Below the pieces are notes generated by a model. It ran no database searches. It was not told the DNA's origin and worked only from the letters and a program-made list of their open reading frames with translations. From positions 1 through 38,200 of the forward strand of contig JAPPIX010000257.1 in NCBI GenBank assembly GCA_028820495.1: DNA of 38,200 bases, given 5' to 3'. The position numbers were made by a program, and so were the translations under genes. Source of the stretch: Gammaproteobacteria bacterium. GTDB taxonomy: Bacteria > Pseudomonadota > Gammaproteobacteria > Pseudomonadales > Azotimanducaceae. Below, piece after piece: positions 4,598 to 27,397 of this stretch (position 1 is the stretch's first letter; every line of letters begins with the position of its first letter).

Positions 4598-6334
<1,737 letters not shown>

Positions 6335-7818: not shown

Positions 7819-7828
7819 ATAGGCCAAG

Positions 7829-8100: not shown

Positions 8101-8101
<1 letters not shown>
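7829..8101 (-). CDS. glpU: Small membrane protein GlpU, DUF2160 family
   Basis: A protein of 90 residues with about three hydrophobic helices (residues 6-24, 45-62, 66-85) and the conserved segment RRGFLPMATTRGDRFFISLLGS. It matches my memory of the DUF2160 family found in glycerol ABC transporter operons, where the gene is called glpU; its biochemical role is not established. The start ATG at 8101 overlaps the glpQ stop by one base (TGATG), a sign of translational coupling. A longer frame to 8209 lies inside glpQ and is rejected. Its expected downstream partner glpV is displaced by the Rieske oxygenase gene. Confidence 0.85.
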
Positions 8102-8910
<809 letters not shown>

Positions 8911-8925
8911 GGGACCTGCCGCCTG

Positions 8926-9792: not shown

Positions 9793-10843
9793 CGTTCACC
9801 AGCCAGCCGTCGCGGTAAAGCAGGATTCGGGACGGGTCAATGTGCAGGCGGGCCTGGTCCCCAACCGAGCCATCCAGGCGTTGCTGCACATGGATCGCCT
9901 TGCCGCCCAATTCCGCGGTTACCAGCCCGGTGGCCGCGCCGCTGAGGGTGCCGAGCGCCCGGGTGCTGCGCACGGTCACGGGAACCCCTCGGTCGCCAAC
10001 TGCCGCCCATTCAGGACGAAAGCCCAACACGCAGCGTCCGTCCGCTGCCGCCGTCGTGCCAAGCGCTTGGCCGTTGCAGCGGATGCTTCCCGCCGCGACC
10101 TCTCCGTCAATCAGGTTCATGCCCGGCGAGCCGATGAAGCGGGCCACCGCCTCGTGGGCTGGCTGTTGGTAAAGCGCTTCAGGGCTGCCCGTTTGCAGCA
10201 CCTTGCCGTGGTGCAGCAGCGTGATGCGTTCGGCGAAGGTCAGCGCCTCGGTCTGGTCGTGGGTGACGTAGATCATGGTCAGCCCGAGTTCGTCCTGCAC
10301 CGCCTTCAGGGCTTGGCGCAACCGCCACTTGGCGGCAGGCTCCACGGCAGTGAGCGGCTCATCGAGCAGCACCAAGGCCACGTCCGGGCGCACCAACGCC
10401 CGGCCGATGGCGGTCAACTGCTTTTCGAACAACGATAGCCGCTTGGGCTTGCGCGTCAGCAGTGCGGCAATGGACAGCAGTTCCGCCACCTCGCCAACGC
10501 GGCGGCGAACCGCAGCGGCGCTCCAGCCACGATTGACCAGCGGAAAGCCGAGATTGCCCGCCACTTCCAAGGCGGGGTAGAGCACTGGAAACTGGAACAC
10601 CTGCGCCACGTGGCGCTCGGCGGGGCTGGCCCCGGTGACGTCGCGTCCGTCGAACTCGATGGTCCCGGCGCTCGGGCGCAAAAGGCCGGCCAGCAGATGC
10701 AGCAGCGTCGTTTTCCCGGCCCCGGAGCCGCCTAGAACCGCATGGGCCTCGCCGTCGCCGAGTTCAAGGTCAACGCCCTCAAGCACCGGCGCGGCGCCTG
10801 GTTCATAGCGATGGTGCAACCCGGATATGCGGATGCTGGCCAA
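9779..10843 (-). CDS. glpT: Glycerol-type ABC transporter ATP-binding protein GlpT
   Basis: A 354-residue ATPase subunit with a C-terminal regulatory-type beta domain. Walker A is canonical (GGSGAGKT, 38-45), the Q-loop Gln is residue 84, Walker B is ALVLLDE (156-162) and the H-loop is VTHD (His195). The ABC signature is degenerate: LSLFEKQ at 136-142 instead of LSGGQ. This is expected for GlpT, which works as a heterodimer with GlpS. The start is uncertain; TTG 10843 gives MASIRISGLHHRYEP, the usual family N-terminus, while TTG 10900 adds 19 unlike residues. The normal upstream partner glpS is 13 kb away, so a promoter is needed in the 99 bp before this start. Confidence 0.88.
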   Translation of the reverse strand: MASIRISGLHHRYEPGAAPVLEGVDLELGDGEAHAVLGGSGAGKTTLLHLLAGLLRPSAGTIEFDGRDVTGASPAERHVAQVFQFPVLYPALEVAGNLGFPLVNRGWSAAAVRRRVGEVAELLSIAALLTRKPKRLSLFEKQLTAIGRALVRPDVALVLLDEPLTAVEPAAKWRLRQALKAVQDELGLTMIYVTHDQTEALTFAERITLLHHGKVLQTGSPEALYQQPAHEAVARFIGSPGMNLIDGEVAAGSIRCNGQALGTTAAADGRCVLGFRPEWAAVGDRGVPVTVRSTRALGTLSGAATGLVTAELGGKAIHVQQRLDGSVGDQARLHIDPSRILLYRDGWLVNDAAG

Positions 10844-10942
10844 GACAACAGCCCTTGGGGTGTTTGAGTCACTTTGGCCCAAGCGCGGGAAGCGAATCAA
10901 GTGCGAGGATTGATCGGTCCCGATGCGTTCGGGTTGCCCTAC

Positions 10943-11809
10943 TCAGTCATCGGTTCCCTTGGCATCCTGCTCGGCCCACCAGTCACCCCCTAGGGCGACG
11001 CGGCGAACGGCGACTGTGTCCGTCGGGTCGTGCCCCACATCGTGCGCCGGGGCCGGAACGTCCTGTACGGTGTTGGTCAAGCGGCCGAGGCCCGTAACCT
11101 CCACTTCCACCACGTCGCCGGGCTGCATCGGTCGTGAGTTTGCGGGCGTGCCGGTCAGTATGATGTCGCCGGGCAGCAAGGTGATGTGGCGGGAGAGATC
11201 CGCCAACTGGTAGTCGATGCCGAAGGTCATCTCGCTGACGTCGCCCTGCTGAACGACAGCGCCGTTCAGATAAGTGCGCAGGGTCGATTCGCGGATGTCC
11301 ACACCACGCACGATGCCGGGACCGAGGGGGCAGAACCCGTCCATGCCCTTCACCCGGGTCATGCCGCCCGCATCGGTGTCGCGGAAGTCCTGCGCGCCGA
11401 CATCGTTGGCCGGGGCGAACCCGGCGATGTAGTTCCACGCCTCCTCCCGTGGCACGTTTTTCATCGGGGCGCCGATGATCGCCGCCACCTCCCCCTCGTA
11501 GTTGAGGTACTGGCAATTGTCGGGGCGGTTGAGCATGCCGCGATGGGCGTTGACCGCCGTGACCGGCTTCTGGAAATAGGTTGGGGTGACCAGGTCGGGT
11601 GCCCGGAACTCGATGCGGCGCGACTCATAGTTCAGGTGGATGCAGATGATCTTGGTGGGATCGCACGGGGGCAGATAGACGGCTTCGGCTTCGATCATCC
11701 GGCGGCCGTCCATCAACACGAGTTCCTCGCCGTCCACCGTTGTCCATTCCGGCCGGCCTTGGACTAGGATGCGCCGCTGTTCGAGTCGGTCGCCCTTCAA
11801 TACGCTCAT
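10943..11809 (-). CDS. Fumarylacetoacetate hydrolase family protein (HpaG/HpcE-like isomerase or decarboxylase)
   Basis: A 288-residue enzyme of the FAH fold, resembling the C-terminal halves of HpaG/HpcE, which isomerise and decarboxylate the oxidised ring-cleavage product in the homoprotocatechuate pathway. The metal-binding signature is YLNYEGEVAAIIG (Glu-Gly-Glu), followed by the typical GFAPANDVGAQDF and the loop PGDIILTGTP. It is the last gene of the leftward catabolic unit, 18 bp after the aldehyde dehydrogenase, with GGAG six bases before ATG 11809. It is single-domain; bifunctional HpaG proteins have two such domains. It might also be a 4-oxalocrotonate-type decarboxylase or an acylpyruvate hydrolase. 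Confidence 0.85.
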   Translation of the reverse strand: MSVLKGDRLEQRRILVQGRPEWTTVDGEELVLMDGRRMIEAEAVYLPPCDPTKIICIHLNYESRRIEFRAPDLVTPTYFQKPVTAVNAHRGMLNRPDNCQYLNYEGEVAAIIGAPMKNVPREEAWNYIAGFAPANDVGAQDFRDTDAGGMTRVKGMDGFCPLGPGIVRGVDIRESTLRTYLNGAVVQQGDVSEMTFGIDYQLADLSRHITLLPGDIILTGTPANSRPMQPGDVVEVEVTGLGRLTNTVQDVPAPAHDVGHDPTDTVAVRRVALGGDWWAEQDAKGTDD

Positions 11810-11827
11810 GTTCTTCTCCGTTGTTCG

Positions 11828-13333
11828 TCAATGGCCCGCTGCGGGCTCACCGCCGCGAGGGGTAAGCGGGAAGGAGGCAAAGCGGGTCTCCGTGTAGAAC
11901 TCGCGGCTTAGATCCCCGCCCTCCCGGCCGAGGCCGCTGATTTTCATGCCGCCGAACGGCTGGCGCAGGTCGCGGTTGAAGCCGGAGTTGATCCAGATCA
12001 TGCCGGTCTGCAGCCGATGGCTGACGTAGTGGGCCGTATCCTGGGACCCGGTCCAAATGTACCCGGCCAGCCCGTAGTCGGAGTTGTTGGCGATGGCGAT
12101 GGCCTCGTCCGCATCCGCAAAGGGAATGACCGTGGCCACCGGGCCGAAAATCTCCTCCTGGCAGATCCGCGCATCCGGTTGCACATCAACGATCGCCGTG
12201 GGTTCAACGAAGTAGCCCTTGTCGAAACCGCCGGGGCGGCTGCCGCCGAAGAGCACTCGGCCTTCCTCGCGGGCAAGGTCCAGATAGCCCATGACCCGCT
12301 CGTACTGCGGCTTGGAGACCAGTGGCCCCAATCTCGTGCCCCGTTCCATCGGATCGCCTGGCTTCCACCCGGCGGCGGCTTTCTCGAACCGTTCGAGAAA
12401 GCGATCGTAGATCTCGTTCTGCACGAGGATGCGGGAGCCCGCCACGCAGACTTGGCCGCTGTTCATGAAGATGCCCATGGCCGCAGCAGGCACCGCCTTA
12501 TCGAGATCGGCGTCCGCGAAGACGATGTTGGCCGACTTGCCGCCCAACTCGAAGGAGGTTCGCTTCAGCCCGTGCGCAGCCCGTTTGGCAATGTCCCGCG
12601 CCGTGGCTGGCGAACCTGTAAATGAGATGCCGATGACGTCGTCGTGCTCAACCAGCGGCACCCCCGCTTCCTGGCCATAGCCGAGCACCATGTTGTACAC
12701 GCCCGGGGGCAACCCCGCCTCTTCGTAGATCTCGCACAGAACGCCAATCGACAGGGGCGAGTTTTCCGACGGCTTGTGGATCGCCGAGTTGCCGTACGCC
12801 AGGCAAGGCGCCATCTTCCACGTGGACAGCATGATCGGGGCGTTCCACGGCGTGATGAGGCCGAAAACCCCGGCCGGGTCGGTCATGGTGTAGGTCAACA
12901 ACGTATCGTCGCGATTGAAGGCGCGATCGCCCGCCTGCTCCTGCTCTTCAGCGAAGAAGCGCAGATTCCAAGCGGATCGCTCCATCAGCGGATGGGGCCG
13001 GCTGCCGAGGTCCGGGCCGATGGGGCCGCCCATCTCCAAGGTCTGCCGCTGCATGATCTCGGCGGACCGCGCCTCGATCAAGTCTGCCGCACGGAACAGC
13101 ACTTCGCGCCGGAACGACGGCTTCGCGCGCGACCAATCTCCAGCCTCGAACGCATCCTTGGCCGCGCTGACCGCTCGGTCGATATCCGCTGCTTCGCCCC
13201 GGGCGGCAGTGGCAACCGCCTCTTCCGTCGCCGGATTGACAACCTCAAAGCACCCACCGGAAGCGGCATCGACGAATCGCCCCCCGATGTAGTGCTGCGC
13301 GGAACCCGCCCGCATGACATCCGCTTCGCTCAT
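11828..13333 (-). CDS. NAD(P)-dependent aldehyde dehydrogenase, muconic-semialdehyde type
   Basis: A 501-residue ALDH. The catalytic Cys lies in NSGQVCVAGSRILV near residue 297, the general-base Glu in SFELGGKSANIVF, and the cofactor loop is GLITPWNAPIMLSTWK. In meta-cleavage pathways this enzyme oxidises the semialdehyde formed by ring opening to the diacid. The gene fits exactly between a dioxygenase that makes such an aldehyde and an FAH-family enzyme that uses the diacid. Its ATG overlaps the dioxygenase stop in an ATGA (13330-13333), pointing to coupled translation. The family is broad, so the substrate is inferred from context. Confidence 0.88.
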   Translation of the reverse strand: MSEADVMRAGSAQHYIGGRFVDAASGGCFEVVNPATEEAVATAARGEAADIDRAVSAAKDAFEAGDWSRAKPSFRREVLFRAADLIEARSAEIMQRQTLEMGGPIGPDLGSRPHPLMERSAWNLRFFAEEQEQAGDRAFNRDDTLLTYTMTDPAGVFGLITPWNAPIMLSTWKMAPCLAYGNSAIHKPSENSPLSIGVLCEIYEEAGLPPGVYNMVLGYGQEAGVPLVEHDDVIGISFTGSPATARDIAKRAAHGLKRTSFELGGKSANIVFADADLDKAVPAAAMGIFMNSGQVCVAGSRILVQNEIYDRFLERFEKAAAGWKPGDPMERGTRLGPLVSKPQYERVMGYLDLAREEGRVLFGGSRPGGFDKGYFVEPTAIVDVQPDARICQEEIFGPVATVIPFADADEAIAIANNSDYGLAGYIWTGSQDTAHYVSHRLQTGMIWINSGFNRDLRQPFGGMKISGLGREGGDLSREFYTETRFASFPLTPRGGEPAAGH

Positions 13334-14205
13334 GACGCCGCCCCCGGGTCGAATCGATGGCCGTAGGTGTCGCGAACGTAGTACTCGGACTCAAAGGTCG
13401 CCGGGCGCGCGCCGCAACCGACCTCGACCATGAATCCAGATGGCGACGCGCAGTAGAAGGAGAACATCTGGTCGTTGGCGTGCTTGCCCAGTGAAATCAC
13501 GATGGGATGGCTCTGCTTGATCCGCTCATAGGTGTGGAACACGTCATCGAAGTTATCGACCTCAAACATGACGTGGTTGATCCGGCCCCTCGGAGGCATC
13601 CCGAAGGCGAGCGAGTGGTCGCGGGTGCCGCAATCCATGAACATGATCTCCATCGGCTGGCCGTCCGGCGCTTTCATGAGGTATTCGAGGCCGCCGCGCA
13701 TGCCCAGCAGCCGGTAGAACCGCCAAACCTCCTCAAGCCCCCGGTGGGCAATGATCATGTGGCCGAGACCGCCATCGCCGGTGACGAATTTGCCGTACAT
13801 GCCGCGACCCGGATGGAACGGCAGGTGGGTATCGACCCGGGGGCCGTGGAAGAGCTCGATGGGGTTGCCCGCGGGGTCCTCGAAGCACATGAGCTCAAGC
13901 ACGCACCGCTGCCGGGCCAGTTCGGTCGGGGCGATTTCGTAGCTGATGCCGTTCTCGTCAAGGATTGAACGCAGGCCCCGAAACTCCTCGGCGCCCGCCA
14001 CCCGCAGCCCGATGCCGGTCAGGTCGTCAGCCCCGTCCTGCTCCAGGATGACCCGGTGGTGCCAGAGGTCCATCCTCAGAAAAAGCGTGTTGTCATCGCT
14101 GTCCGGATGAACCTGAAGGCCGATTCCCTCACTGGCGAACGTTCGCCACGCATCGAGATCCGAAACCCCGAATCTCGCATAGCCCAGTTCGATTACTGCG
14201 GTCAT
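13330..14205 (-). CDS. Type I extradiol ring-cleavage dioxygenase, BphC class
   Basis: A two-domain VOC-fold enzyme of 291 residues that opens a catechol ring using Fe(II) and O2. Ligands are H149 (GLGHM), H211 (RINHVMF) and E261 (GFMVEVG). The acid-base residues H197, H242 and Y251 are also present, almost at the same spacing as in BphC of Burkholderia LB400 (H146, H210, E260, H195, H241, Y250). ATG 14205 is preferred over an upstream start at 14235 because GGAGGT lies seven bases before it. It overlaps the HpaB-like gene and the aldehyde dehydrogenase by ATGA. No C-C hydrolase of BphD type is nearby, so the product is more likely an aldehyde than a ketone. Confidence 0.92.
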   Translation of the reverse strand: MTAVIELGYARFGVSDLDAWRTFASEGIGLQVHPDSDDNTLFLRMDLWHHRVILEQDGADDLTGIGLRVAGAEEFRGLRSILDENGISYEIAPTELARQRCVLELMCFEDPAGNPIELFHGPRVDTHLPFHPGRGMYGKFVTGDGGLGHMIIAHRGLEEVWRFYRLLGMRGGLEYLMKAPDGQPMEIMFMDCGTRDHSLAFGMPPRGRINHVMFEVDNFDDVFHTYERIKQSHPIVISLGKHANDQMFSFYCASPSGFMVEVGCGARPATFESEYYVRDTYGHRFDPGAAS

Positions 14206-15701
14206 TTCCTGTACCTCCGTGTTTCTTGATTGCAACCGTCCCCGAGATCATAGCGGGCGGCCATTTCGTCCGTTGCCCGCCAGAACTCGGGCACGGCCTC
14301 CCACTCAGCGGTTTGCTGGGCGCGCATGTGCGCGAGCGCGTAGTTTCTCGGCGCGGAGGCCAGATAGAAGCGCTCGTAGAGTTCCATCCGGCCGCCTAGG
14401 CCGGAGCCCACCATGTCCCAAGCCGTGCGGAACAGGCGGGCGCGTTCGGCCGCCGGGATTCCGTCGGCGCCACCGAGGTAGTTCTCCAGCAATGGCTCGA
14501 GCGCTTCGTCGTCGAAGTCGGCGCTGGCCGGCGTGGCCAGCAGGTTGTGCGAGCCAAGCGTCTTGAGGATGTCGTTCACCCGGACCATCCAGCCGGGCAT
14601 GGTGGGGCGCAGTGCGAAGAACGGACGTTCGTCGCAAATCCAAGTGCCATCGCCATAGTCCGAGGCGCCGTCCTCGGCAGCTTTGAGCGCCGCCCGGGTC
14701 AGTTCGGCGTAGGACCAGAGCTCACCGAGCATGTGGGTGACTTCGCCGCGTTTCTGCTGTCCGGTCACTTTGGCGATGCGGTTGGCCAAGTCGTAGGCGA
14801 ACTCCAGCTTGACCAGCGCCCGAATCACCGTCTGCTGCATGATGTTGCCCGTCCAGCCGTTGCGCATGGCGGTATTGAAAACGGTTGGATTGGCGTTGCA
14901 GAACACGCGGTGCTTCGGCACTTCGACTTGATCGAACACGATGAAGGCGTCCTGCTCGTCGAAGCGGCTGGAGAACGGATGATCGAAAACGTTGCGGCTG
15001 ACGCCGTAGTGGTCCCGGCAGAGCACTTTCAGGCCCGGCGCATCCATGGGCACGGAGAAGGCGATGGCAACGTCGGGTTGATCCTCGGGTATGGGGTGCC
15101 CCGGATAGACGGCCAGTTCATCGGCAAACGGCCCCAGCGTCGCCAGAATGCGGGCGCCGGACACCACGATCGAATCGGCGGTCTCGTCCACTTTGCGCAG
15201 CGCCAGTTGCCCATTGACGCCTTCGTAGTCCGGAATTCGCTTGTCAAGGACGGGGTGCACGATGGTGTGGGTGAGGGCTAGGTCCTTGGCGGCGATCTCC
15301 TTCTGGAAGGCGCAGAGATTCTCCTGCCACTCTTCGTTGCCCGCTTGCCGCCAGATGCTCGGCTGGCCGGCAAATCCGGCAAAGGTCACGTTCAGGTAGT
15401 CGGGGGTCCTGCCCAGCATCCCAACGCTGTACTTCGCCAAGGTGTGGAGGCACTCATGCCGGCGGGCCAGATCTTCTCGGCACCGGGGGATGAGGTGGCT
15501 GACGCTCGCAACCCCGCCTTCATGCGCCATCAGGCAAGCGTCGGCGTGGTCGTTCTGCCAGTCGAAGTACCCGGCCATGCCGGCCAGGGAGCCCTTGAAC
15601 AGCTCATGGGAGGTGACATCGCGCACCGCCTCGCCATTCACCCAGACCGAGCGGTTGTCGCGCAATCCGCTGAGGTACTGGTTACCGGTTCTTGCAGACA
15701 T
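14202..15701 (-). CDS. HpaB-family FADH2-dependent phenol monooxygenase
   Basis: A 499-residue oxygenase of the 4-hydroxyphenylacetate 3-hydroxylase (HpaB) family, close to the usual length of about 520. It should hydroxylate a phenol next to the hydroxyl group, making the catechol for the next gene. Recognisable are the N-terminal TGNQYLSGLRDNRSVWVNGE, the central HPFSSRFDEQDAFIVFDQV followed by EVPKHRVF, and LGSHNLLATPASADFD near the C-terminus. These two-component enzymes need reduced flavin from a separate reductase; no HpaC-like gene is present, so the azoreductase at 21184 is a candidate. AGGAAA lies six bases before ATG 15701. The stop overlaps the dioxygenase start. Confidence 0.9.
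   Translation of the reverse strand: MSARTGNQYLSGLRDNRSVWVNGEAVRDVTSHELFKGSLAGMAGYFDWQNDHADACLMAHEGGVASVSHLIPRCREDLARRHECLHTLAKYSVGMLGRTPDYLNVTFAGFAGQPSIWRQAGNEEWQENLCAFQKEIAAKDLALTHTIVHPVLDKRIPDYEGVNGQLALRKVDETADSIVVSGARILATLGPFADELAVYPGHPIPEDQPDVAIAFSVPMDAPGLKVLCRDHYGVSRNVFDHPFSSRFDEQDAFIVFDQVEVPKHRVFCNANPTVFNTAMRNGWTGNIMQQTVIRALVKLEFAYDLANRIAKVTGQQKRGEVTHMLGELWSYAELTRAALKAAEDGASDYGDGTWICDERPFFALRPTMPGWMVRVNDILKTLGSHNLLATPASADFDDEALEPLLENYLGGADGIPAAERARLFRTAWDMVGSGLGGRMELYERFYLASAPRNYALAHMRAQQTAEWEAVPEFWRATDEMAARYDLGDGCNQETRRYRK
14213..14218 (-). promoter_or_regulatory. Shine-Dalgarno site that sets the dioxygenase start
   Basis: GGAGGT on the minus strand, seven bases before ATG 14205. 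It lies within the last codons of the HpaB-like gene and decides for 14205 over the upstream in-frame start at 14235, which has no such site. Confidence 0.75.
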
Positions 15702-15734
15702 TAGTTTCCTTTTTTAGGTTGCGGCACAGGACGA

Positions 15735-16553
15735 CTAGTTTCCTTGATCGCGGGTCAAGGTTGCCATCTGAATCGGGATAAATCCGACGTCGACGATTGA
15801 TTGACCGTTATCCGCCATCAGAATGGTCCCTGTGACACAGGCAGAAGCATCCGTTGCCAGGAACTCGATGCAACGTGCAACGTCATCGGGCGCTGCCATG
15901 CCGCTGATGGGATTGAACTGCGTCAGCTTGTTCTGCGCCTCTTCACGAGAAAGGCCATGCGCGCGCATCAGCAGCCCTACAGCCGGATCGGTCATTGGTG
16001 TATCGACCCAGCCCGGGCAAATGGTGTTCACTCGAATGCCGTCGGGTCCGTAGTCCCGTGCCATGGACCGCGTCAGCCCGAGCAGCGCCGCCTTGGTCGT
16101 ACCGTAGGCCGCTGCTTCAAGCGCGCCGAACAGGCCGCCAATGGAGGAAACGTTTACGATTGCTCCACCGCCACGCTGCCTGAGGTAGGGCACGGCTTCG
16201 CGGGCAATGCGAAACGCACCATTCAAGTTGACCTCAACCATCCGATTCCAGCTATCGTCATCAAGCTCGTCAACACGCCCCCGATCACTAATCGCTGCAT
16301 TGTTGACCACGACATCCAAGCCACCGCACTTCGACACAAGTTCCTCAACCGCCTGTTTCACAGCCGCCGAATCGGCGACGTCACAGGGTAAGGGAATGGC
16401 GCCTGTTTCGTTCCCCAGTGCATCCAACAGGTCGGCGCGCCGGCCAACTATGCCGACGGCGGCGCCCTGCGACCTGAACCGGCGGGTGACCGCTTCCCCG
16501 ATGCCGGACCCTGCCCCGGTAACCAGGGCAATCTTTCCGGTCATGTCAGTCAT
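15735..16553 (-). CDS. Short-chain dehydrogenase/reductase (SDR)
   Basis: A 272-residue classical SDR. The cofactor motif is TGAGSGIG (12-19), followed by DVAD (58-61), NNAA (84-87) and the catalytic S137, Y150 and K154 (YGTTK). The segment IVGRRADLL shows Arg residues after the second strand, where an acidic residue would mark NAD preference, so NADP(H) is more likely. It sits 10 bp after the luciferase-like gene and 33 bp before the HpaB-like gene, in one unit. It probably oxidises an alcohol or reduces a ketone on the side chain of the aromatic substrate before or after hydroxylation; the exact step is unknown. Confidence 0.9.
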   Translation of the reverse strand: MTDMTGKIALVTGAGSGIGEAVTRRFRSQGAAVGIVGRRADLLDALGNETGAIPLPCDVADSAAVKQAVEELVSKCGGLDVVVNNAAISDRGRVDELDDDSWNRMVEVNLNGAFRIAREAVPYLRQRGGGAIVNVSSIGGLFGALEAAAYGTTKAALLGLTRSMARDYGPDGIRVNTICPGWVDTPMTDPAVGLLMRAHGLSREEAQNKLTQFNPISGMAAPDDVARCIEFLATDASACVTGTILMADNGQSIVDVGFIPIQMATLTRDQGN

Positions 16554-16563
16554 GCTTGCGTGC

Positions 16564-17505
16564 CTAGAACCCCTCGGCGACCCGGCTGGTCTTTTCGACT
16601 ACCTCAGCCAGAAACTCTGGGAGCCTCGCCAAGTCATCCAGAAACTGGCTCGGCTTGATCACAAAGCTCCGGACACCCCTAACCAACTGCCGCTCAAGCG
16701 TGCTGAGCGCACCATCGAGGTCGGCTACGGAGTCCGGCGATTCGAATCGTCCGACAAGCCCACCGATAAACTCCAGTTCCGACAGGTCCCGGCCCGCTGC
16801 CCTCATGGCGTCGGCGATCCTCGCGAGGTCTTCGGGGCTGGTCGGCCCCGTGCCCATGAACCCCGATCCATACTCCACAAGTCGTCGAAGCATGTTGTCG
16901 TTGACTGCACCCCCCCCAAACCAGAGCGTCGGTCCCCCGGCGCGATAGGGGCCGGGCTCCAGCCAGACGTTCTCGAATTCATAGAAGTCACCCCGGAAGC
17001 TGGCTGGAGACCCAGCCCAAACCGTCCGCATCACCTTGAGCTGTTCGTCGAGAATCCGGCCCCGCCGTCGAAAAGGCACCTGCAGTGCCTGGTACTCGCT
17101 TTCGTGCCAGCTTACGGTCGGCAGCACCACCAGTCTCCCCTGTGCCAGCAGGTCCAGCGTCGCGAGTTCCTTGGCGAGCAACAACGGATGCCTGAGCGGG
17201 GCAATCATCGCTGTGCTGAGTATTCGAATCCGCGAAGTTCTCGCTGCTATGCCTGACATGAGCACAATATTGCTTGGCCATGCCGTCGAAGGGTGCTGGG
17301 TTCCGGGTCCGACAAACTCGCGGATGTTGAAGGGTTCGCCGTTCGAATCCGCGCCCTGACCCAGCACGATGTGGTCACTGATGATCACGCCATCAAAGCC
17401 GGCCTGTTCAGCCGCCACCGCCATCTGGACCTGACCCGGCAAGTCGCGCGGGTCGATCAATGTCCAGTTCTCGCTCAGTGTGAGCAGGAGTTTGATATCT
17501 GCCAT
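16564..17505 (-). CDS. Luciferase-like (LLM) flavin-dependent oxidoreductase
   Basis: A 313-residue TIM-barrel protein of the bacterial luciferase superfamily, whose members use FMNH2 or F420. Family landmarks are AEQAGFDGVIISDHIV near residues 32-47, the segment ARTSRIRILSTAMIAPLRHP in the middle, and GGPTLWFGG. It most resembles the group usually annotated as F420-dependent or alkanal-type monooxygenases, but no F420 synthesis gene is seen and the cofactor is open. It might perform a Baeyer-Villiger-type or side-chain oxidation. It lies 81 bp after the Rieske gene and just before the SDR. A weak AAAGGG precedes ATG 17505. Confidence 0.85.
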   Translation of the reverse strand: MADIKLLLTLSENWTLIDPRDLPGQVQMAVAAEQAGFDGVIISDHIVLGQGADSNGEPFNIREFVGPGTQHPSTAWPSNIVLMSGIAARTSRIRILSTAMIAPLRHPLLLAKELATLDLLAQGRLVVLPTVSWHESEYQALQVPFRRRGRILDEQLKVMRTVWAGSPASFRGDFYEFENVWLEPGPYRAGGPTLWFGGGAVNDNMLRRLVEYGSGFMGTGPTSPEDLARIADAMRAAGRDLSELEFIGGLVGRFESPDSVADLDGALSTLERQLVRGVRSFVIKPSQFLDDLARLPEFLAEVVEKTSRVAEGF

Positions 17506-17586
17506 CGCCCTTTACCTGAATTGCTTGGATTCCAATGCGTCTGCCACGTCAATTTCGACGCTCTCGGTGGCGTGCGGGTCTCCGCC

Positions 17587-18618
17587 TCATCCACCGGACA
17601 GCTTGTGCTGCAATCCGTGAAAGTAGGTGATCGCCCAGTCATGGGAGGAAGGCATGACGTCCGGTCGCGTCGATTCAATGATCTTCTGTTGCGCCTCGAT
17701 CATGGCTTTGTCTTCGAGAAACGCCTGCATCGCAACCGCCGCCTGCCGTTCGCGTTCCTGCTCGTCGCCGCATGACCGATGAGGGCCGGCTGAAAAGAAG
17801 TACCTCGATCTCCCTCGGGACAGGGGCGTCACCGCCTGACTGCTGCCGCTGACTCCCCCGATGGCGGCACTGCGATCGGGTTGGGCGTACTCGAGGTGTT
17901 CCGCCGTTCCCGCTTCGAACAAGCCGGTCCACAGCACCAGCACGCCTGGCACCAGGAAGTCGTAGGTCAAGAGCACGTCCACGGCGCTGTTCTGCCCTGC
18001 CTGCCCAGGCGGTGAACGGGTGCCGGTTGTCCATTTCGAGTAGCGCAATCCACGGGGCAGCGTTTCCCAGCGGGGATGGGAGTAGGCGAATTCCGACCCC
18101 GAACCAAAGCTCTCCGAATGAACATAGGTGAGGTGGCTGAAGTCGAGCAAGTTGTCGAGGATCAGCGAGGCTTCGGCCTCGTAGTCCAGTTGGCCAGGCA
18201 CCAGCAGGTAGTCGGGGTCGTCCAGATCGAAGACATCAGGAATCAAGTCGAGATCGGCCGCTTCGGTGTCCCCCATCCACAACCATATCCATCCAGAGCG
18301 ACTTGCGACGGGGTAGGTTTTCACGCGCGCATGGTCGGGCACCGAGTCCTGCCCCGGAATTTCCACTACGGACCCGGCAGCGGAGTACAGAAAGCCGTGG
18401 TACATGCACCGCAGATTGCCGCCCTCGCAGCGGCCCAGCGACAGGGGCGCCGCACGGTGGACGCAACGATCCTCGAACGCAACCAGCTCGCCGTTCGATC
18501 GCCAGAGCGCAATCGGCTCGCCCATGACCTCGACCGGCAGGGGCTTGCCCGATGCCTGATCAAGGTCCTTCGACCAAGCGGCCACATACCATGCGTTGCG
18601 CGGATACCCTGTTTCCAT
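17587..18618 (-). CDS. Rieske oxygenase, vanillate O-demethylase (VanA)-like
   Basis: A 343-residue Rieske oxygenase of the VanA/toluenesulfonate monooxygenase size class. Rieske ligands are C52-x-H54 and C71-x2-H74. The mononuclear iron site is DNLLDFSHLTYVH, with N153, bridging D156, H159 and H164, and the third ligand probably Asp in FLEDKAMIEAQQK, a segment shared with VanA. Such enzymes remove O-methyl or N-methyl groups or hydroxylate side chains, often exposing a phenol. This fits a step before the HpaB-like hydroxylase. No VanB-type reductase is in the window. The start is ATG 18618, 17 bp after the TonB receptor stop. Confidence 0.9.
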   Translation of the reverse strand: METGYPRNAWYVAAWSKDLDQASGKPLPVEVMGEPIALWRSNGELVAFEDRCVHRAAPLSLGRCEGGNLRCMYHGFLYSAAGSVVEIPGQDSVPDHARVKTYPVASRSGWIWLWMGDTEAADLDLIPDVFDLDDPDYLLVPGQLDYEAEASLILDNLLDFSHLTYVHSESFGSGSEFAYSHPRWETLPRGLRYSKWTTGTRSPPGQAGQNSAVDVLLTYDFLVPGVLVLWTGLFEAGTAEHLEYAQPDRSAAIGGVSGSSQAVTPLSRGRSRYFFSAGPHRSCGDEQERERQAAVAMQAFLEDKAMIEAQQKIIESTRPDVMPSSHDWAITYFHGLQHKLSGG

Positions 18619-18635
18619 GCATGCATCGCCAGCCG

Positions 18636-20870
18636 CTAGAACGAGAACTTGAGTTCCGCGCCATACGCGCGGCCGCGCCCGACGTTCAACTCCTGAATTC
18701 CGACTGTGCCACCATTGGCGAAGTCGGTGCCTCCGAGAAAATAGACCTCGTCAGTCAGGTTGTTGCCGTACAACGCCAGTGACACGAATTCCGTAATGTC
18801 CAACTGCGCGCGCGCACCCAGTAGCCCGTATGAATCGAGGGTAATCGCACCATGCTCTTGCAAGAACGAGCGGTGCCTGTCGATCCAGGAATAGTCGAGA
18901 CTGACACTGAGCCTCATGCCATTGTCTAACCTGTGCGTGTAGTTGCCGCCGAGAGTGAACTTGAAATCCGGCAGGGCGGGAAGGTCGGCGTCGGTCGTCA
19001 GGCCACCCGAAGCCACAATGTTCGGATACAGTTTTTTGTACTTGCCTTCCATCAGGGCGGCCGAAAGGTAGAGCGTCAAGACTTCCGATGCGGCCCACTC
19101 CGTCTCAAGCTCCAGACCATAGATTTCGGTATCCCCTACGTTTTGCGTGGTGGCCACCGGTGCGGGGGTGAATACGATGATCACGGACTGGGCGTCGCTC
19201 CAGTCCGTGAGGAACAGGGTCGGATTGAAGCGAAACACGCCGCCAAATGTGGTCCGGGCGCCGATCTCATAGGTCCAGGCTTCCTCCGGATCGAATGAAA
19301 GCCCGAAATTTGGCAAATCGGTGCTGGCAGTGTTGCCACCCGCACGGAAGCCCTTTGAGGCCTTCGCGTAAAGCATCACGTCTTCGCCAGCTTGATACTG
19401 AACGCCGATGTGCGGCGACCAGTCATCATATTTGAAATCCAAGTTCGAGCCGGGTATGTCTTCGAGCGATGAGGTGACCTTCTCGTCGGTGTAACGAATG
19501 CCCAGGCTGAGCGAAAAGGCACCAGTTAAGTCAAGCGTACCTTGGCCGTAAACCGCAATCGACTCAGTGTCGATGCCGGCCCGCACCCCGCCGGGCGGCA
19601 GCAGGTTGCCAATGCCAACAAGGCTCGACGCAGTGCCAACATCGCTGGAATCGTAGTAGTACAAACCCGTGACGAACGATAATGAGTCGCTGAACGCGGT
19701 GCCTGAAAGCTGGAGTTCCTGCGAAAAGGCCTCGAGATCTCCGATCGTCTCCGTGGCCAGAATGTTGTACGGGGTGAGGTCAAAGTCCTGTGAGAACGTG
19801 GCATCGCTTTCCACTTGGGCCGTGATCGACTTCAGTGTCAGCTTGTCGGTCAGATCCCACTCGATCGTGCCCTGATACACATCGTATTCAAAGTCAAGGA
19901 AGTCCGGGTAGTTCAGGCCACGAATGGTGAAGTCGCTCGGATCGCCAAGCGGGGATATCAGAGTGTCATCAAAACCGGTCAGGTCCTCCGGCGGAATCAA
20001 CATGTTCAGCGGTGGCGGCAGCCATACGCCGGGGTTCGCCGCAAGGAACGCAAACTGTGCAAACGGGTTGACGGCGCCGATGACGTTGGTGCGGCCGTTG
20101 GTTTCAACCCGGATCAGTTCCGTTTTCAAATCCACTGTCAAACGGTCGGATGGCTCCCAGCGCGCGCGGATGCGTCCTGCCTTGACCTCTTCTGCGCCTC
20201 TATCAATGTCGTTCAATTGATCGTAGACATACCCGTCCTGATCTTCATACATTGCGGCCAAGCGTACATTGAACTGCTCGTGAATTGGCAGGGTCATTGC
20301 GCCTTCACCGCCCTTGCGGTCGAAGTTGCCGAACGTACCTTTCAGGTAGCTTGAGAATTCGTTCTCCGGGGCGACCGAGACGTATTGAATCGCCCCAGCG
20401 ATCGTGTTCCGGCCAAACAAAGTCCCCTGAGGCCCGCGAAGCACTTCGACGCGTTCCACGTCCAGTAGTCCGAGCACGTTGCCAAAGCCCGAAGGAAAGT
20501 AGACTTCGTCGATATAGGTGCCTACTGAAGCTTGAGACTCCTGGGCGTCGGTACCAATTCCGCGAATGGAAACGTTGCTGCCCGCTCCACCGCCACGCCC
20601 CGCCAGGCCAATGATTTGCAGCCCCGGCGTGTATTTCGCCACATCCTGCAAGTCCTCGGCGTTACGCTGCTCAAGAGCTTGGGAGCCCAAAGCAGTCAGA
20701 GCGATGGGAGTTTCCTGCAAACCGGTTTCGCGCCGGGTTGCCGTTACAACGACTTCTTCTATCCAGCCGTCTGATAGCCCTTGTCTTGTCTCAGAATCCT
20801 GCGCGGCGACAGCGCCGCTCAAAACGATGATCGACGCGGCAGCGCTGCTCAGCTTTTGAATTGTCCCCAT
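18636..20870 (-). CDS. TonB-dependent outer-membrane receptor
   Basis: A 744-residue receptor with a signal peptide of about 23 residues (cleavage after AVAA), a TonB box-like segment IEEVVVTATRRETGLQETPI, a plug domain (EDLQDVAKYTPGLQIIG, SIRGIG, VEVLRGPQGTLFGRNTIAGA) and a long beta-barrel ending in an aromatic residue (AYGAELKFSF), as outer-membrane proteins do. It imports a large or scarce ligand using the proton-motive force. As first gene of the leftward catabolic unit it probably takes up the substrate of the island rather than iron, and no siderophore gene is seen. GGGGGGA precedes ATG 20870. The plug sequence resembles the receptors often found with steroid, terpene and aromatic catabolism genes. 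Confidence 0.92.
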   Translation of the reverse strand: MGTIQKLSSAAASIIVLSGAVAAQDSETRQGLSDGWIEEVVVTATRRETGLQETPIALTALGSQALEQRNAEDLQDVAKYTPGLQIIGLAGRGGGAGSNVSIRGIGTDAQESQASVGTYIDEVYFPSGFGNVLGLLDVERVEVLRGPQGTLFGRNTIAGAIQYVSVAPENEFSSYLKGTFGNFDRKGGEGAMTLPIHEQFNVRLAAMYEDQDGYVYDQLNDIDRGAEEVKAGRIRARWEPSDRLTVDLKTELIRVETNGRTNVIGAVNPFAQFAFLAANPGVWLPPPLNMLIPPEDLTGFDDTLISPLGDPSDFTIRGLNYPDFLDFEYDVYQGTIEWDLTDKLTLKSITAQVESDATFSQDFDLTPYNILATETIGDLEAFSQELQLSGTAFSDSLSFVTGLYYYDSSDVGTASSLVGIGNLLPPGGVRAGIDTESIAVYGQGTLDLTGAFSLSLGIRYTDEKVTSSLEDIPGSNLDFKYDDWSPHIGVQYQAGEDVMLYAKASKGFRAGGNTASTDLPNFGLSFDPEEAWTYEIGARTTFGGVFRFNPTLFLTDWSDAQSVIIVFTPAPVATTQNVGDTEIYGLELETEWAASEVLTLYLSAALMEGKYKKLYPNIVASGGLTTDADLPALPDFKFTLGGNYTHRLDNGMRLSVSLDYSWIDRHRSFLQEHGAITLDSYGLLGARAQLDITEFVSLALYGNNLTDEVYFLGGTDFANGGTVGIQELNVGRGRAYGAELKFSF

Positions 20871-20944
20871 GGTTCCCCCCTATCACCCTGCTTCGCCGTC
20901 TGCCTTAGGAATGCTAAGTCAAGCGCAATCATCCAACCAGTCGA

Positions 20945-20975
20945 TATTTGTGAACCCTTGCATAAGTATTTGTGA
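20945..20975. repeat. Direct repeat TATTTGTGA spaced by two helical turns
   Basis: TATTTGTGA occurs at 20945-20953 and 20967-20975, 22 bp apart from start to start, so both copies face the same side of the helix. It lies 75-105 bp before the receptor start. The arrangement suits a dimeric regulator, but no factor can be named. Confidence 0.45.
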
Positions 20976-21120
20976 TGTTTGTCCGATGAGCGCTCCGATT
21001 GACCGCATCAACCAACCGATTGCCGAAGTGCTTAAGGCAACCCAATCGCACTGCGTTCAGCCTCTGACATCTCGCAGCGAATAACATCTGTTTTCTCGAT
21101 GCGTGACTTAACAAATATTG

Positions 21121-21138
21121 ATTAATTGGATGATTAAT
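21121..21138. promoter_or_regulatory. Possible operator: ATTAAT-N6-ATTAAT dyad
   Basis: Two ATTAAT half-sites (21121-21126 and 21133-21138) form an 18-bp symmetric element 46 bp before the azoreductase start. LysR-type regulators bind short AT-rich dyads with a T-N11-A core, and this site contains that spacing. The link to the LysR gene at 23025 is inferred. Confidence 0.35.
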
Positions 21139-21183
21139 GCTTGGTGTATGCTCCCCAAAACGACATTTGTAACGGTCGAGCAC

Positions 21184-21798
21184 ATGCCTAAACTGCTGCA
21201 CATTCAGTCGAGTCCGAATCTCGAAAATTCGGTGACGCGCACCCTGTCCGAGCAATTCGTCCGCAAGTGGACGGAGAGCCACCGCAACGTCGAAGTCGAG
21301 GTGCTTGACCTCGCCACCGAACCGCTGCCGCACTTCGGCCCGGAGATTCTTCAGGCCGCCACCACGCCCCCCGCAGAGATGAGCGATGAAACCCAAACTG
21401 CGGTCGCCGTCTCGGACCGCCTCATTGCCCAGTTGGAAGCGGCGAACGTGCTCGTCATCGGCTCCCCGATGATCAACTTCAGCATCTGCACCCAGCTCAA
21501 GGCTTGGTTCGACCATGTGACAATCGCGGGCAAGACCTTCGAGTACGCAGCACCCGGGGTCGCGCGCGGGCTGCTGTTCGCCAAGCGGGCCATCGTCATC
21601 GAAGCGCGTGGCGGCGACTATGCCGATCTGCCGTTCAGCGCGTTCGATTTCCAGGAGCCGTTGTTGAAGGCGCTGCTGATGTTCTTGGGAATATTCGACG
21701 TGACCTTCATTCGCGCTGAGGGGATGCGCATGAACGAAGAGGAGGCGGAAGACATCATTCGCAATGCGCAAGGCGTTGTCGCTAGGGTGGCCGCATGA
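21184..21798 (+). CDS. FMN-dependent NADH:flavin reductase, AzoR (azoreductase) family
   Basis: A 204-residue flavodoxin-like protein. The N-terminus (MPKLLHIQSSPNLENSVTR) is the FMN phosphate loop of AzoR proteins, and PMINFSICTQLKAWFDHVTI followed by AGKTF matches the family's second flavin loop. ATG 21184 is chosen since the upstream extension to 21118 is unlike the family; no good ribosome site is seen. AzoR proteins reduce quinones and azo dyes with NADH through bound FMN. The stop overlaps the start of the next flavin monooxygenase by four bases, which suggests that it supplies reduced flavin to that enzyme, or clears quinones made from catechols. Confidence 0.88.
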   Translation: MPKLLHIQSSPNLENSVTRTLSEQFVRKWTESHRNVEVEVLDLATEPLPHFGPEILQAATTPPAEMSDETQTAVAVSDRLIAQLEAANVLVIGSPMINFSICTQLKAWFDHVTIAGKTFEYAAPGVARGLLFAKRAIVIEARGGDYADLPFSAFDFQEPLLKALLMFLGIFDVTFIRAEGMRMNEEEAEDIIRNAQGVVARVAA

Positions 21799-23024
21799 GC
21801 GCCCAGCCGCACTGGGAGTTCTCCAACCAACAACGCATCGAGCGATACGAGGGCGATACGCTTGCCGATCGCATCCGGCCCCACATTGAGGAAATCGCCG
21901 CCAGAGCCGCGGAAACCGAGACAGCCCGAACCGTACCAGCCGAGAACATGCGTCACATCGTCAATGCGGGCTTCATCCGAGCGCTGGTGCCTAGGGCGTG
22001 GGGCGGCGACCACATTGACCTGTCGGAGTACTGCGACGGGGTCAGGACGCTGACCAAGGCGTGCCCATCCACCGGCTGGGTGGCCTCGGTGCTCGGCATC
22101 CATCCACCAGCCCTGCCGCACTTTCATCCCGACGTTCAGGAAAAGGTCTGGTCAGGGGGAGCCGACACTGTCATTGGCTCCTCCGGAACCGCCTTGATGA
22201 AGGCCAAGCTCGTTGATGGCGGCGTGTTGATTTCCGGGCGGGGCCGCTGGTCGAGCGGTTGCGACTACGCCGACTGGATCATGGTGGGCGTTCGGGTTCC
22301 GAATGCCGCGGACCCGCACTATCCGGAGCGCAGCTACAGGGACCACATGTTCTTCGCGCACCACAGCCAGTACGACATCGACGACACCTGGTACTCCACC
22401 GGCATGCGCGGGACCGGGTCCAAGGATCTGGTTTTCCGCGAGCTGTTCGTACCCACCGAGCACCTGGAACCGATTGACGGATTGAATTTTGGCTGGACGC
22501 GCGGAGAGGGCACCGTGGATGGCTGGATGTGCAGCGCGCCCTTCTCCGCCATTTTCACGACGTTCCTCCCTGCCGTGGCTCTCGGCTGCGCAGACGGCAT
22601 GCTCGAACAGTTTCAGAAGCGGCAGCGAATGCGAAAGAATGCCTACACCCGTGCCAAGGGCATCCTCAACCCGGCAGGCCACATGCGCTTGGCGGAGTCC
22701 GTTCACGAACTCGAATCGCTCTCGGTTTACTTCAAGCACCTTCTCGACGAATTGCAGGAATACGGAGAGCGCAAGGAACGTCTCACCCAGAGCGCCTTCA
22801 TGGAATTGCAATCCAAGTGGCCCTTCATTACCGACCGCGCCGTCAATGTCATCGACCGGTTGTTCAAGGGCGCGGGGTCGAGCGCCATCGCGGACTTCAA
22901 TGCCATGCAACGCTACTGGCGTGACGGCACCACCTGCAGGCTGCACACGGGCTCGGACTACGACATCAATCTGCAGCAGCACGGTCGCAGCCTGTTGGGA
23001 TTGATGCCGACGCCGGATCTGTAG
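21795..23024 (+). CDS. Group D flavin-dependent monooxygenase (acyl-CoA dehydrogenase fold, HsaA-like)
   Basis: A 409-residue oxygenase with the acyl-CoA dehydrogenase fold. It carries features of the HsaA / p-hydroxyphenylacetate hydroxylase C2 group rather than true dehydrogenases: PSTGWVASVLGIHPPALPHF near residue 90, SGRGRWSSGCDYADWIMVGV in the middle, and DTWYSTGMRGTGSKDL. These enzymes use reduced flavin from a separate reductase to hydroxylate a phenol. It would be the second phenol hydroxylase in the island, after the HpaB-like protein; the two could act on different ring positions or intermediates. The four-base overlap with the azoreductase gene and the direct abutment of the LysR gene mark one operon. 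Confidence 0.88.
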   Translation: MSAQPHWEFSNQQRIERYEGDTLADRIRPHIEEIAARAAETETARTVPAENMRHIVNAGFIRALVPRAWGGDHIDLSEYCDGVRTLTKACPSTGWVASVLGIHPPALPHFHPDVQEKVWSGGADTVIGSSGTALMKAKLVDGGVLISGRGRWSSGCDYADWIMVGVRVPNAADPHYPERSYRDHMFFAHHSQYDIDDTWYSTGMRGTGSKDLVFRELFVPTEHLEPIDGLNFGWTRGEGTVDGWMCSAPFSAIFTTFLPAVALGCADGMLEQFQKRQRMRKNAYTRAKGILNPAGHMRLAESVHELESLSVYFKHLLDELQEYGERKERLTQSAFMELQSKWPFITDRAVNVIDRLFKGAGSSAIADFNAMQRYWRDGTTCRLHTGSDYDINLQQHGRSLLGLMPTPDL

Positions 23025-23945
23025 ATGGCGTTGAGAACCAGGAATCTCAATCTGATTCCGCTGCTGCAAGCCCTGTTGGAGGAGGAAAGCGTGGCTGGCG
23101 CAGCAAGGAAAATGAACCTCTCCCAACCAGCCATGAGCGGAGCGCTGGCGCGGCTGCGTGAAGCGTTGAACGACCCCTTGCTGCTGCGGCAGGGTCGCTC
23201 CATGCGCCTTTCCCCACGGGCCGAGGAGTTGCGTGCGCGCGTGAACCGGCTTTGTGCGGAAATTGAGGACCTTTTCGAACCGGTGGCATTTGACCCGGCA
23301 ACGGCGGAGCACAAGTTCGTTGTCGCAACCCCCGATTACTTGGCGTACATGATCAGCAAGGAACTGCTCCCGCGCCTCGCCGGTGAGGCACCGAGAATCA
23401 AGCTGAGATTCGTGGACGTACCCGTCGATCTGCCCGAGTGGCTCAAGAACGGTGATATCGACCTGGCGGTGTGCGGGAACTTCGGGACCTGGCCCGAACT
23501 CGAGTACCAGCCCATATTCAAGGATCCCGTGGTGGCCGCCATGTCTTCGAACCATCCGTTGAGCGAGGACCAACAACTCTCAATGGAGCAGCTACTCAAA
23601 TACCCTTTCCTGGCGTTCGACCCGAGCATCGGTCGTTTCAAGCACCAGAGGCGCGTCCAGACCGGCATCGCGAGCTTCGATCTCGCCCCGCAGGTCACCA
23701 TTGGACAGATTACGGATGCGGTACTGCTGACGCTTGGCACGAGTTTCGTCACCGCGGCGCCGAAGTCGCTGGTTGAAGCGATGTCCCGCAGCCTGCCTCT
23801 CAGGCAACTCGATTTGGCTGGAGACGATCCGCCCATTGATACAGGCATGTTCTGGATGAAGGCCTTGGGAGAAGGCCCTGCCATAGAGTGGCTGAGGAAT
23901 GTCCTGAGAGAGAGCTTGGCCCAGTTTGCGCCTATATCTGAATAA
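23025..23945 (+). CDS. LysR-type transcriptional regulator
   Basis: A 306-residue LTTR. The winged helix-turn-helix covers residues 6-65 (ESVAGAARKMNLSQPAMSGA followed by LARLREALNDPLLLRQGR), followed by a periplasmic-binding-like effector domain. The N-terminus (RNLNLIPLLQALLEEESVAG) resembles the NodD/LinR-type subgroup, which often responds to aromatic ligands. The ATG follows the monooxygenase stop without a gap, so the regulator is made with the rightward unit and probably controls the divergent region 20871-21183. Its 3' end overlaps the 3' end of the oppositely oriented glpS by 14 bp. Confidence 0.92.
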   Translation: MALRTRNLNLIPLLQALLEEESVAGAARKMNLSQPAMSGALARLREALNDPLLLRQGRSMRLSPRAEELRARVNRLCAEIEDLFEPVAFDPATAEHKFVVATPDYLAYMISKELLPRLAGEAPRIKLRFVDVPVDLPEWLKNGDIDLAVCGNFGTWPELEYQPIFKDPVVAAMSSNHPLSEDQQLSMEQLLKYPFLAFDPSIGRFKHQRRVQTGIASFDLAPQVTIGQITDAVLLTLGTSFVTAAPKSLVEAMSRSLPLRQLDLAGDDPPIDTGMFWMKALGEGPAIEWLRNVLRESLAQFAPISE

Positions 23946-24882
23946 GGTCGTCCTCGGCAACATACAAGCGTACCCGGGCGCCCGCCTTCACATCCGCCAT
24001 GCCCGGCAGGCGGGCCACCCAGTCCACGCCGCCCACGCGGCAGTGCAGGAAGGTCTCCGCGCCGCTGGTCTCCACGCTGTTGACTTTGGCTTCGAAGACC
24101 GCGTCGCCGTCGGCCAACGGGGCCAGGCGCAGATGCTCCGGGCGAACCAGGGTTTGCTCGCCGAGGCGGTTGACGCCGGGATCGCTCATCAGGTCCGCAG
24201 CCGCTGCGGAAACGGGCGCGTTGTACACCTCAAGGGGCGTGCCGCTCTGCAGCTTGGCGCGGTCCTGAAGCAACAGGACTTCGTCGCCCAAGGTGAACGC
24301 ATCCTTCGGGTCCGAGGTGAGATAGAGCACCGTCGGGCCGTCGGATTGGACGATCTCCCGAAGCTGCAGGCTCAACTCCTCACGCAGCTTGTAGTCGAGG
24401 TTGACCAAGGGCTCATCCATGACCAGCACGTCCCCCTGCTGGGCTAGGGCGCGGGCGATGGCCACCCGTTGCTGCTGCCCCCCCGACAAGGCTTCGGGAA
24501 GGCGGTCTAGAAGATCGCCGATCTGCAGGCGGCCGGCCAAGGCTTCGACCGTGCGGGCCATCTCGATCCCATCATCCCTGTCTCGCCCCATTCCCGCCGC
24601 CTTCATGGGTGAGGCGATGTTGTCGAACACGCTCCAGTTGGGGTAGTTGACAAAGGCCTGATAGACCAAGCCCACTCGACGCCGCCGAGCGCTGAGCGTG
24701 CTGACATCGGCGCCGTTGATGAAAACGGTGCCGGGCGGGGAGGGGTCGAGCCCGGCGACAGCCCGCGCCAACCGCGTCTTGCCGGCGTTGTTGCGGCCCA
24801 GCACGACGGTGATGGCGCCTTCGGCGAAGTGGTGGCTGAAGGCGTGCGGACCGCCCAGATCGAGAGCGCGGATGTTCAGCAT
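23932..24882 (-). CDS. glpS: Glycerol-type ABC transporter ATP-binding protein GlpS, displaced from its operon
   Basis: A 316-residue ATPase subunit with a C-terminal beta domain. The signature is canonical (LSGGQ, 132-136) and so is Walker B (VLVMDE, 152-157), but Walker A is atypical (GRNNAGKT, 29-36) and the H-loop His is replaced (LTSDP, Ser190). GlpS proteins of glpSTPQUV operons show this pattern as I recall it, and its partner GlpT has the complementary defects. In such operons glpS directly precedes glpT; here the two are 13.1 kb apart with the whole catabolic island between. It starts at ATG 24882 only 23 bp from a divergent gene, so its promoter probably overlaps that gene. Confidence 0.85.
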   Translation of the reverse strand: MLNIRALDLGGPHAFSHHFAEGAITVVLGRNNAGKTRLARAVAGLDPSPPGTVFINGADVSTLSARRRRVGLVYQAFVNYPNWSVFDNIASPMKAAGMGRDRDDGIEMARTVEALAGRLQIGDLLDRLPEALSGGQQQRVAIARALAQQGDVLVMDEPLVNLDYKLREELSLQLREIVQSDGPTVLYLTSDPKDAFTLGDEVLLLQDRAKLQSGTPLEVYNAPVSAAAADLMSDPGVNRLGEQTLVRPEHLRLAPLADGDAVFEAKVNSVETSGAETFLHCRVGGVDWVARLPGMADVKAGARVRLYVAEDDLIQI

Positions 24883-24905
24883 GAGCCCATGCTACACTGC
24901 CAAGC

Positions 24906-27340: not shown

Positions 27341-27397
27341 CAACTGCTTTCTCCGTTGGCGGCTCATCAAGCTGGCGGAAACTGCCGCCTGCAAGGC

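Follow-up and report, generated by a model that had tools for sequence, protein, structure and literature searches.

A candidate mobile gene cluster for the degradation of a phenolic aromatic compound in an uncultured gammaproteobacterial family

We analysed a stretch of 38,200 nucleotides (the window) from a Gammaproteobacteria bacterium of the family Azotimanducaceae (Pseudomonadales; assembly GCA_028820495.1, contig JAPPIX010000257.1, positions 1 to 38,200), in which an initial annotation, made from the letters alone, had pointed to a cluster of 11 genes for the catabolism of an aromatic compound. Our analysis gives a slightly better than even chance that this cluster is a mobile, LysR-controlled unit that imports a phenolic aromatic compound, probably methoxylated and other than 4-hydroxyphenylacetate (HPA), and degrades it by meta cleavage. 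The proposal that the genes make up a single catabolic system, equipped with an uptake receptor, a ring-cleavage module and a regulator of its own, is supported. The gene combination, the candidate operator, the demethylase difference between genomes and the insertion appear to be new, while each part belongs to an already known family and the cluster is organised along the lines of known catabolic clusters. As the initial annotation had anticipated, no description of this gene set was found in the literature, which was covered through open-licence papers, mostly by title and abstract. The cluster offers a bounded, testable catabolic unit from an uncultured bacterial family.

The eleven-gene block and its insertion site

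All 11 genes are intact and lie where they had first been placed. The leftward run (minus strand) begins with a TonB-dependent outer-membrane receptor, assigned by domain match (18636-20870), followed by a VanA/DdmC-type Rieske oxygenase and candidate O-demethylase (17587-18618), an LLM oxidoreductase of the TIGR03619 family, which would use F420 or FMN (16564-17505), a short-chain dehydrogenase/reductase (SDR; 15735-16553), an HpaB-type FADH2-dependent phenol hydroxylase (14202-15701), a BphC-type extradiol dioxygenase (13330-14235), an aldehyde dehydrogenase whose top NCBIfam score, below cut-off, is HpaE (ALDH; 11828-13333), and an HpaG-like protein of the FAH superfamily (10943-11809). Reading frames overlap at HpaB/BphC and at BphC/ALDH. 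The rightward run (plus strand) comprises an AzoR-like flavin/quinone reductase of flavodoxin fold (21118-21798), an HsaA/HPAH-C2-type reduced-flavin hydroxylase that overlaps the AzoR stop (21795-23024), and a LysR regulator that directly abuts HsaA (23025-23945). The LysR protein has both HTH_1 and LysR_substrate domains, and its nearest solved sequences are 2esn and the LysR-type group 2uye/1uth, with PcpR weaker; the SDR, AzoR and FAH assignments come from profile and domain matches. By eye, AzoR probably does not start at the listed TTG (21118), an ATG near 21184 being likelier, and BphC probably starts at the ATG near 14205, which overlaps the HpaB stop. Among the matches listed, none of the 10 cluster proteins scanned reached an NCBIfam equivalog cut-off, and the same was true of LysR, so the protein names used here are family-level only.

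The block is located exactly between two ABC-transporter ATPase genes on the minus strand, both assigned by alignment and profile. One now lies directly downstream of FAH (9779-10900), and the other had its final codons changed at the junction (23932-24882). These genes are adjacent in five of the eight other genomes of the genus (G001, G002, G003, G005 and G006); they are on separate contigs in G004, and their best matches are far apart in G007 and G008. Alignment to the empty site of G002 (stretch L086) defined the boundaries of the insert. Window 4595-10903 aligns to L086 7098-13399 with 94.6% identity and window 23940-25436 to L086 13432-14925 with 93.9% identity. Window positions 10903 and 23940 thus correspond to L086 13399 and 13432, with 13,036 bp extra in the window (10904-23939) and a 32-bp spacer lost. 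No alignment to L086 was found right of window position 25436. The block has a GC content of 0.612 vs 0.648 and 0.639 in its flanks, and the LysR stop codon, judged by eye at the junction, was seemingly drawn from the target sequence. No target-site duplication or transposase was seen by eye at the junctions, where no systematic search was made. Judging from these alignments, the cluster is apparently a horizontally moved unit that was inserted as a single block. We also considered an assembly chimera and rejected it, because the sequences joined to its two ends form a single uninterrupted operon in relatives.

All 11 genes are syntenic and in the same order in a second species, G006 (L009), at a different locus; its isolate name suggests a sponge sample. 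With this order kept in a second species and an empty site in a third, the cluster is more than chance, which bears out its description as one unit. Between the genome of the window (G000) and G006, the ratio of nonsynonymous to synonymous divergence (Ka/Ks) is 0.07-0.15 for all 11 genes. The synonymous divergence itself (Ks) is low for VanA (0.07), LLM (0.11), TonB (0.16) and SDR (0.25); it is 0.54-0.84 for FAH, ALDH, BphC, HpaB, AzoR, HsaA and LysR. Five genes of the ABC operon, treated as orthologues, have values of 0.56-1.24. We infer that the import-and-tailoring block (TonB, VanA, LLM and SDR) was exchanged more recently between the two lineages; the remaining seven genes show no clear sign of an exchange later than vertical descent.

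The initial annotation had looked to conserved co-occurrence across genomes, and for the whole cluster this proved narrow. The complete 11-gene set was seen in two of 206 family genomes, and the HpaB-BphC core is commoner. HpaB was found in 29 of the 206 (E <= 1e-60), 14 of them at an identity of at least 70% and one of these in two pieces. VanA was found in six (E <= 1e-40), with more than 40% identity only in G000 and G006, and HsaA in three (G000, G003 and G006). In samples of 390 genomes from the order, evenly drawn from a larger group, VanA was present in five at 43% identity or more, G000 included, and HsaA in G000 itself alone. These searches scored part of the first-look candidates in each genome (at most 10 for VanA and eight for HsaA in the family, five and four in the order).

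A pattern-based scan of 84,980 species genomes returned 14 loci with close HpaB relatives. BphC adjoins HpaB in nine of the 14, with FAH present as well in eight, and ALDH and FAH are both present in five. BphC was not found in L018, L020, L021 and L022, where at least 9 kb downstream of HpaB was read, nor in L019, where the contig ends just past HpaB. Upstream of HpaB, on the opposite strand, L010 and L012 have a TetR gene by Pfam assignment, as do L014 and L017 by clustering with that of L012. Scattered occurrence, which the initial annotation would have taken as evidence against a cluster, was therefore found in part: an HpaB-BphC(-ALDH)-FAH core occurs without the rest, at some loci near TetR, and in G003 regulon and core are on separate contigs. 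In L022 (G190), HpaB is split into two pieces in different frames and the locus gave no BphC match. In G111 (L102, 7317-14925), a variant of the core stands next to its own TonB receptor gene, in the order TonB-HpaB-BphC-ALDH, followed by an RraA-like gene and, by eye, a RidA-like gene. The RraA-like gene matches the C-terminal half of PRK12764, and the cluster FAH matches the N-terminal half.

Among plasmids, three Novosphingobium records carry VanA relatives of 53-54% identity, and the same three carry HpaB relatives of about 49%; the best plasmid match of the cluster VanA, at 54%, is to Novosphingobium. No syntenic cluster was present in the plasmid stretches examined, all of them unannotated (two from one Novosphingobium record and one from strain THN1). 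Plasmid pLA3 of Novosphingobium pentaromativorans US6-1 has homologues of VanA, TonB, ALDH, FAH, BphC and LLM within about 60 kb; however, they show no synteny with the cluster and are about 26-46% identical.

Candidate operators and the P450 variant

A 28-bp motif, recognised by its conservation, occurs as two inverted copies in the intergenic region between TonB and AzoR. Candidate operator 1, with an ATC-N9-GAT core, lies upstream of the TonB operon (20927-20954, plus strand), and candidate operator 2, the inverted copy, upstream of the AzoR operon (21108-21135, minus strand). We take the motif to resemble a nod box. A pattern built from the two window sites themselves gave a mean of 0.00 matches over 100 window shuffles, and was found nowhere else in this genome at up to three mismatches. 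G006 retains both sites, one exactly and one with a single mismatch; a third operator-like site, with five mismatches, lies between its HsaA and LysR (L087 4453-4480), where none was found in the window. In G003 (L110), two sites with 5 and 7 mismatches of 28 lie before AzoR and between TonB and LysR. No site with seven or fewer mismatches appeared in 100 shuffles each of L110 and L087. The seven sites (in G000, G003 and G006) yielded a broader consensus, which matches them exactly by construction. Across nine genomes of the genus it found no further exact match (reversed control, 0) and four matches with two mismatches, which resemble one other conserved sequence.

Based on the conservation of these sites, we predict that LysR binds both inverted candidate operators and thereby controls the two divergent operons. 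A precedent is the tetralin (thn) system, in which the LysR-type activator ThnR has sites at two divergent promoters that lie close together and drive a degradation pathway (PMC4834489). The gene set of that system differs from the present one. The candidate operator marks members of the unit in relatives.

G003 carries a variant of the regulon. One contig (L110) encodes AzoR (76% identity), HsaA (72%), a P450, TonB (45%) and LysR (69%), and HpaB-BphC (86%) is encoded on another (L111). The separation of the halves onto two contigs, together with the occurrence of the HpaB core by itself in other genera, in four loci preceded by a TetR gene, would fit two independent operons lying side by side and serving different compounds, a TonB/LysR/AzoR-HsaA regulon and an HpaB-BphC-ALDH-FAH operon. 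We nevertheless consider this arrangement unlikely. The fused order is kept in two species at different loci and under purifying selection, the gap between SDR and HpaB, which follow the operator-side TonB gene on one strand, is only 33 bp, and both halves moved as one block.

The favoured reading of one unit for a probably methoxylated compound includes O-demethylation as an early step, as first proposed. The VanA-type protein has both Rieske and VanA_C domains, like the VanA/DdmC O-demethylases, and dicamba O-demethylase (DdmC) is the nearest solved sequence; unlike in those systems, no VanB-type reductase is encoded among the 11 genes. The P450 of G003 is nearest to CYP199 among solved sequences. 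CYP199A4 demethylates 4-methoxybenzoate (PMC6021390), and the P450 GcoAB and the Rieske enzyme GdmAB are alternative guaiacol demethylases (PMC12997858). The difference between a Rieske enzyme in G000 and G006 and a CYP199-like P450 in G003 lends moderate support to O-dealkylation by these proteins. This difference inside one regulon constitutes a natural experiment on O-demethylase interchange.

Several observations weigh against the favoured reading. Rieske and P450 enzymes of these kinds can hydroxylate too, and the DdmC match spans residues 5-169 only, which is the Rieske half and part of the catalytic domain. The G003 P450 comes after HsaA and not after TonB, so its place in the operons differs. 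The G003 loci read gave no VanA or LLM match and an SDR match of only 30%, and VanA was not found in that genome at E <= 1e-40. Since HpaB-BphC of G003 is on another contig, with no operator at up to 7 of 28 mismatches in that locus (L111), the regulon and the ring-cleavage module can be uncoupled. The HpaB-BphC core likewise occurs in other genera without TonB, VanA, LLM and SDR, and the uneven Ks indicates that parts of the cluster have at times moved separately. The 11 genes include no Rieske reductase, ferredoxin or HpaC-type flavin reductase, and the absence of any score above an equivalog cut-off also counts against the reading.

Hydroxylases, ring cleavage and the likely substrate

In the pathway that we propose from these families, the compound would be brought across the outer membrane by the TonB receptor. 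The VanA-type enzyme would then strip an O-alkyl group and free a phenol, a slot that the CYP199-like P450 may take in G003. SDR and LLM might work on the side chain, although the side-chain oxidation assigned to them by the initial annotation gained no support. Conversion of phenol to catechol would fall to HpaB, to the AzoR-HsaA pair, or to both, and the BphC-type enzyme would open the ring. The HpaE-like character of ALDH suggests that the ring-cleavage product is an aldehyde; ALDH would oxidise this semialdehyde, and FAH would isomerise, decarboxylate or hydrolyse the resulting diacid. A DmpE-like hydratase on contig C274 (342 bits, cut-off 409), which adjoins genes resembling by eye acetaldehyde dehydrogenase and aldolase, could with these neighbours complete the route to central metabolites.

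With 171.2 bits, the LLM protein exceeds the cut-off (166.9 bits) of TIGR03619, a subfamily named as F420-dependent, and the genome has a cofD match above its cut-off (290.4 vs 257.45 bits). For these two reasons it need not be an oxygenase, and the initial count of four oxygenase types was loose in that respect. F420 is a possible cofactor.

HpaB has both HpaB_N and HpaB domains but scores 299.2 bits against an equivalog cut-off of 480.2. According to PMC10537072, an Arg-Tyr-His triad binds the phenol, and Ser197-Thr198 of the Thermus thermophilus enzyme hold the substrate carboxylate. The triad is kept in the cluster protein (R98, Y102 and H145) and in all 17 aligned relatives, from which the split HpaB of L022 was omitted. 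The Ser-Thr pair is not kept and reads Gly-His here; it is Ala/Gly-His in 14 of the 17 relatives, Ser-Thr in one (L104) and other residues in two (L063 and L103). Because His could still bind an acid, Gly-His indicates a different pocket and not a neutral substrate. The residue roles for the HsaA-like protein come from the same paper. With columns counted by eye, this protein shares with the HsaA/HPAH-C2 hydroxylases the catalytic His and the His and Ser that bind the phenol, whereas the column of the HPA-binding Arg263 holds Ser. It scores 272.6 bits with HPAH-C2 and 259.3 bits with HsaA (cut-off 450), below both cut-offs. The HpaB subclass with its altered pocket points to a phenolic substrate still to be assigned. 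The usual neighbour of HsaA/HPAH-C2-type hydroxylases is a flavin reductase, whereas here it is AzoR-like, and AzoR may be the source of reduced flavin for the hydroxylases.

These residues bear on whether the cluster is an ordinary HPA (homoprotocatechuate, hpa) pathway with a replaced dioxygenase. HpaB-, HpaE- and HpaG-like proteins do share one operon here, as in that pathway. In both hydroxylase types, however, the residues that bind the HPA carboxylate are replaced, a BphC-type enzyme stands in for HpaD (just 57 bits), and no Hpa-like protein passes its cut-off. The cluster further differs by its TonB, Rieske, LLM, SDR and HsaA-like genes, and the best HpaH match in the genome reaches 209.7 vs 351.5 bits (HpaF and HpaI were not sought). 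We regard an ordinary HPA pathway as highly improbable.

The BphC-type protein retains H159, H207 and E271 (numbered from the TTG start), which we take to be the 2-His-1-Glu iron ligands and which are conserved in the 10 matching relatives. It scores 299.4 bits with TIGR03213, the biphenyl-2,3-diol 1,2-dioxygenase equivalog (cut-off 366.45), vs 176.3 for HsaC (cut-off 450), and it lies nearest to 2wl3 and 1,2-dihydroxynaphthalene dioxygenase, placing it with dihydroxynaphthalene/catechol dioxygenases. Degradation of a steroid or oestrogen by a 9,10-seco or 4,5-seco route, with the HsaA-like protein as A-ring hydroxylase and the BphC-like protein as A-ring dioxygenase, is therefore improbable. 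The steroid-like substrate suggested by the initial annotation is disfavoured by the preference of BphC for TIGR03213 and by the lack of an HsaD-type hydrolase among the 11 genes, where the ALDH is HpaE-like; the search for steroid genes did not extend to the rest of the genome. The HsaA-like protein, which does match the HsaA profile, scores slightly better with HPAH-C2. Steroid degraders from sponges, gammaproteobacteria included, are reported in PMC5790920. Hydrolase-like genes were also seen by eye in the window outside the block (7-774 and 32725-33492). Taken together, profile scores and residues disfavour both the canonical homoprotocatechuate and the 9,10-seco steroid pathways.

A further alternative is a stilbenoid or a fragment of a lignin dimer as the substrate, the dimer being cut by an RPE65-family oxygenase encoded nearby or elsewhere. 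HpaB enzymes accept resveratrol (PMC10537072). A related HpaB has an RPE65-family gene beside it in L021 and also, judged by clustering, in L020, and in G006 a fragment at the contig end, about 2.4 kb past LysR, matches carotenoid/lignostilbene dioxygenases below cut-offs. Against this, the block contains no RPE65-family gene (such genes were not counted genome-wide), and the HpaB genes of L020 and L021 sit with LigB-type and other genes and not with the present set. We therefore judge a dimer-derived substrate quite unlikely. The full neighbourhood in L020 and L021 comprises LigB-type dioxygenase, MOSC, DUF2255, aminotransferase, ALDH and RPE65-family genes, assigned by Pfam in L021 and by shared clusters in L020.

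Neighbouring genes in the window

As a result of the insertion, FAH is followed on its strand by the ATPase, permease and binding-protein genes of the ABC operon, and no terminator is predicted between FAH and these genes (window 9779-10942). Because of this arrangement, the importer genes may be read from the catabolic operon. Scans for sigma-70 promoters and terminators in two intergenic regions found 0; since shuffle means were also 0 to 0.4, these scans say little. In a broader, doubtful though conceivable extension of the preferred unit, the cluster would be a mobile modular regulon dedicated to a phenolic natural product, methoxylated and of marine, perhaps sponge-linked, origin. Unrelated O-demethylases, a Rieske enzyme in two species and a CYP199-like P450 in a third, would serve one operator-controlled regulon, and landing in an ABC-importer operon without a predicted terminator would couple outer- and inner-membrane uptake to degradation.

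A second Rieske oxygenase is encoded in the window (6466-7818), with a 76% identical paralogue on contig C337 (L053 2615-3952), and this genome has 18 PF00848 matches. A DUF3604 protein (759 bits) is encoded near the insertion site (25433-27394). Look-alike AAA ATPase genes, presumably of the DUF4143 kind, were seen by eye close to the cluster or to a variant of it in three genomes (window 30309-31511; L110 7219-8439; L087 2278-2613), which may be coincidence.

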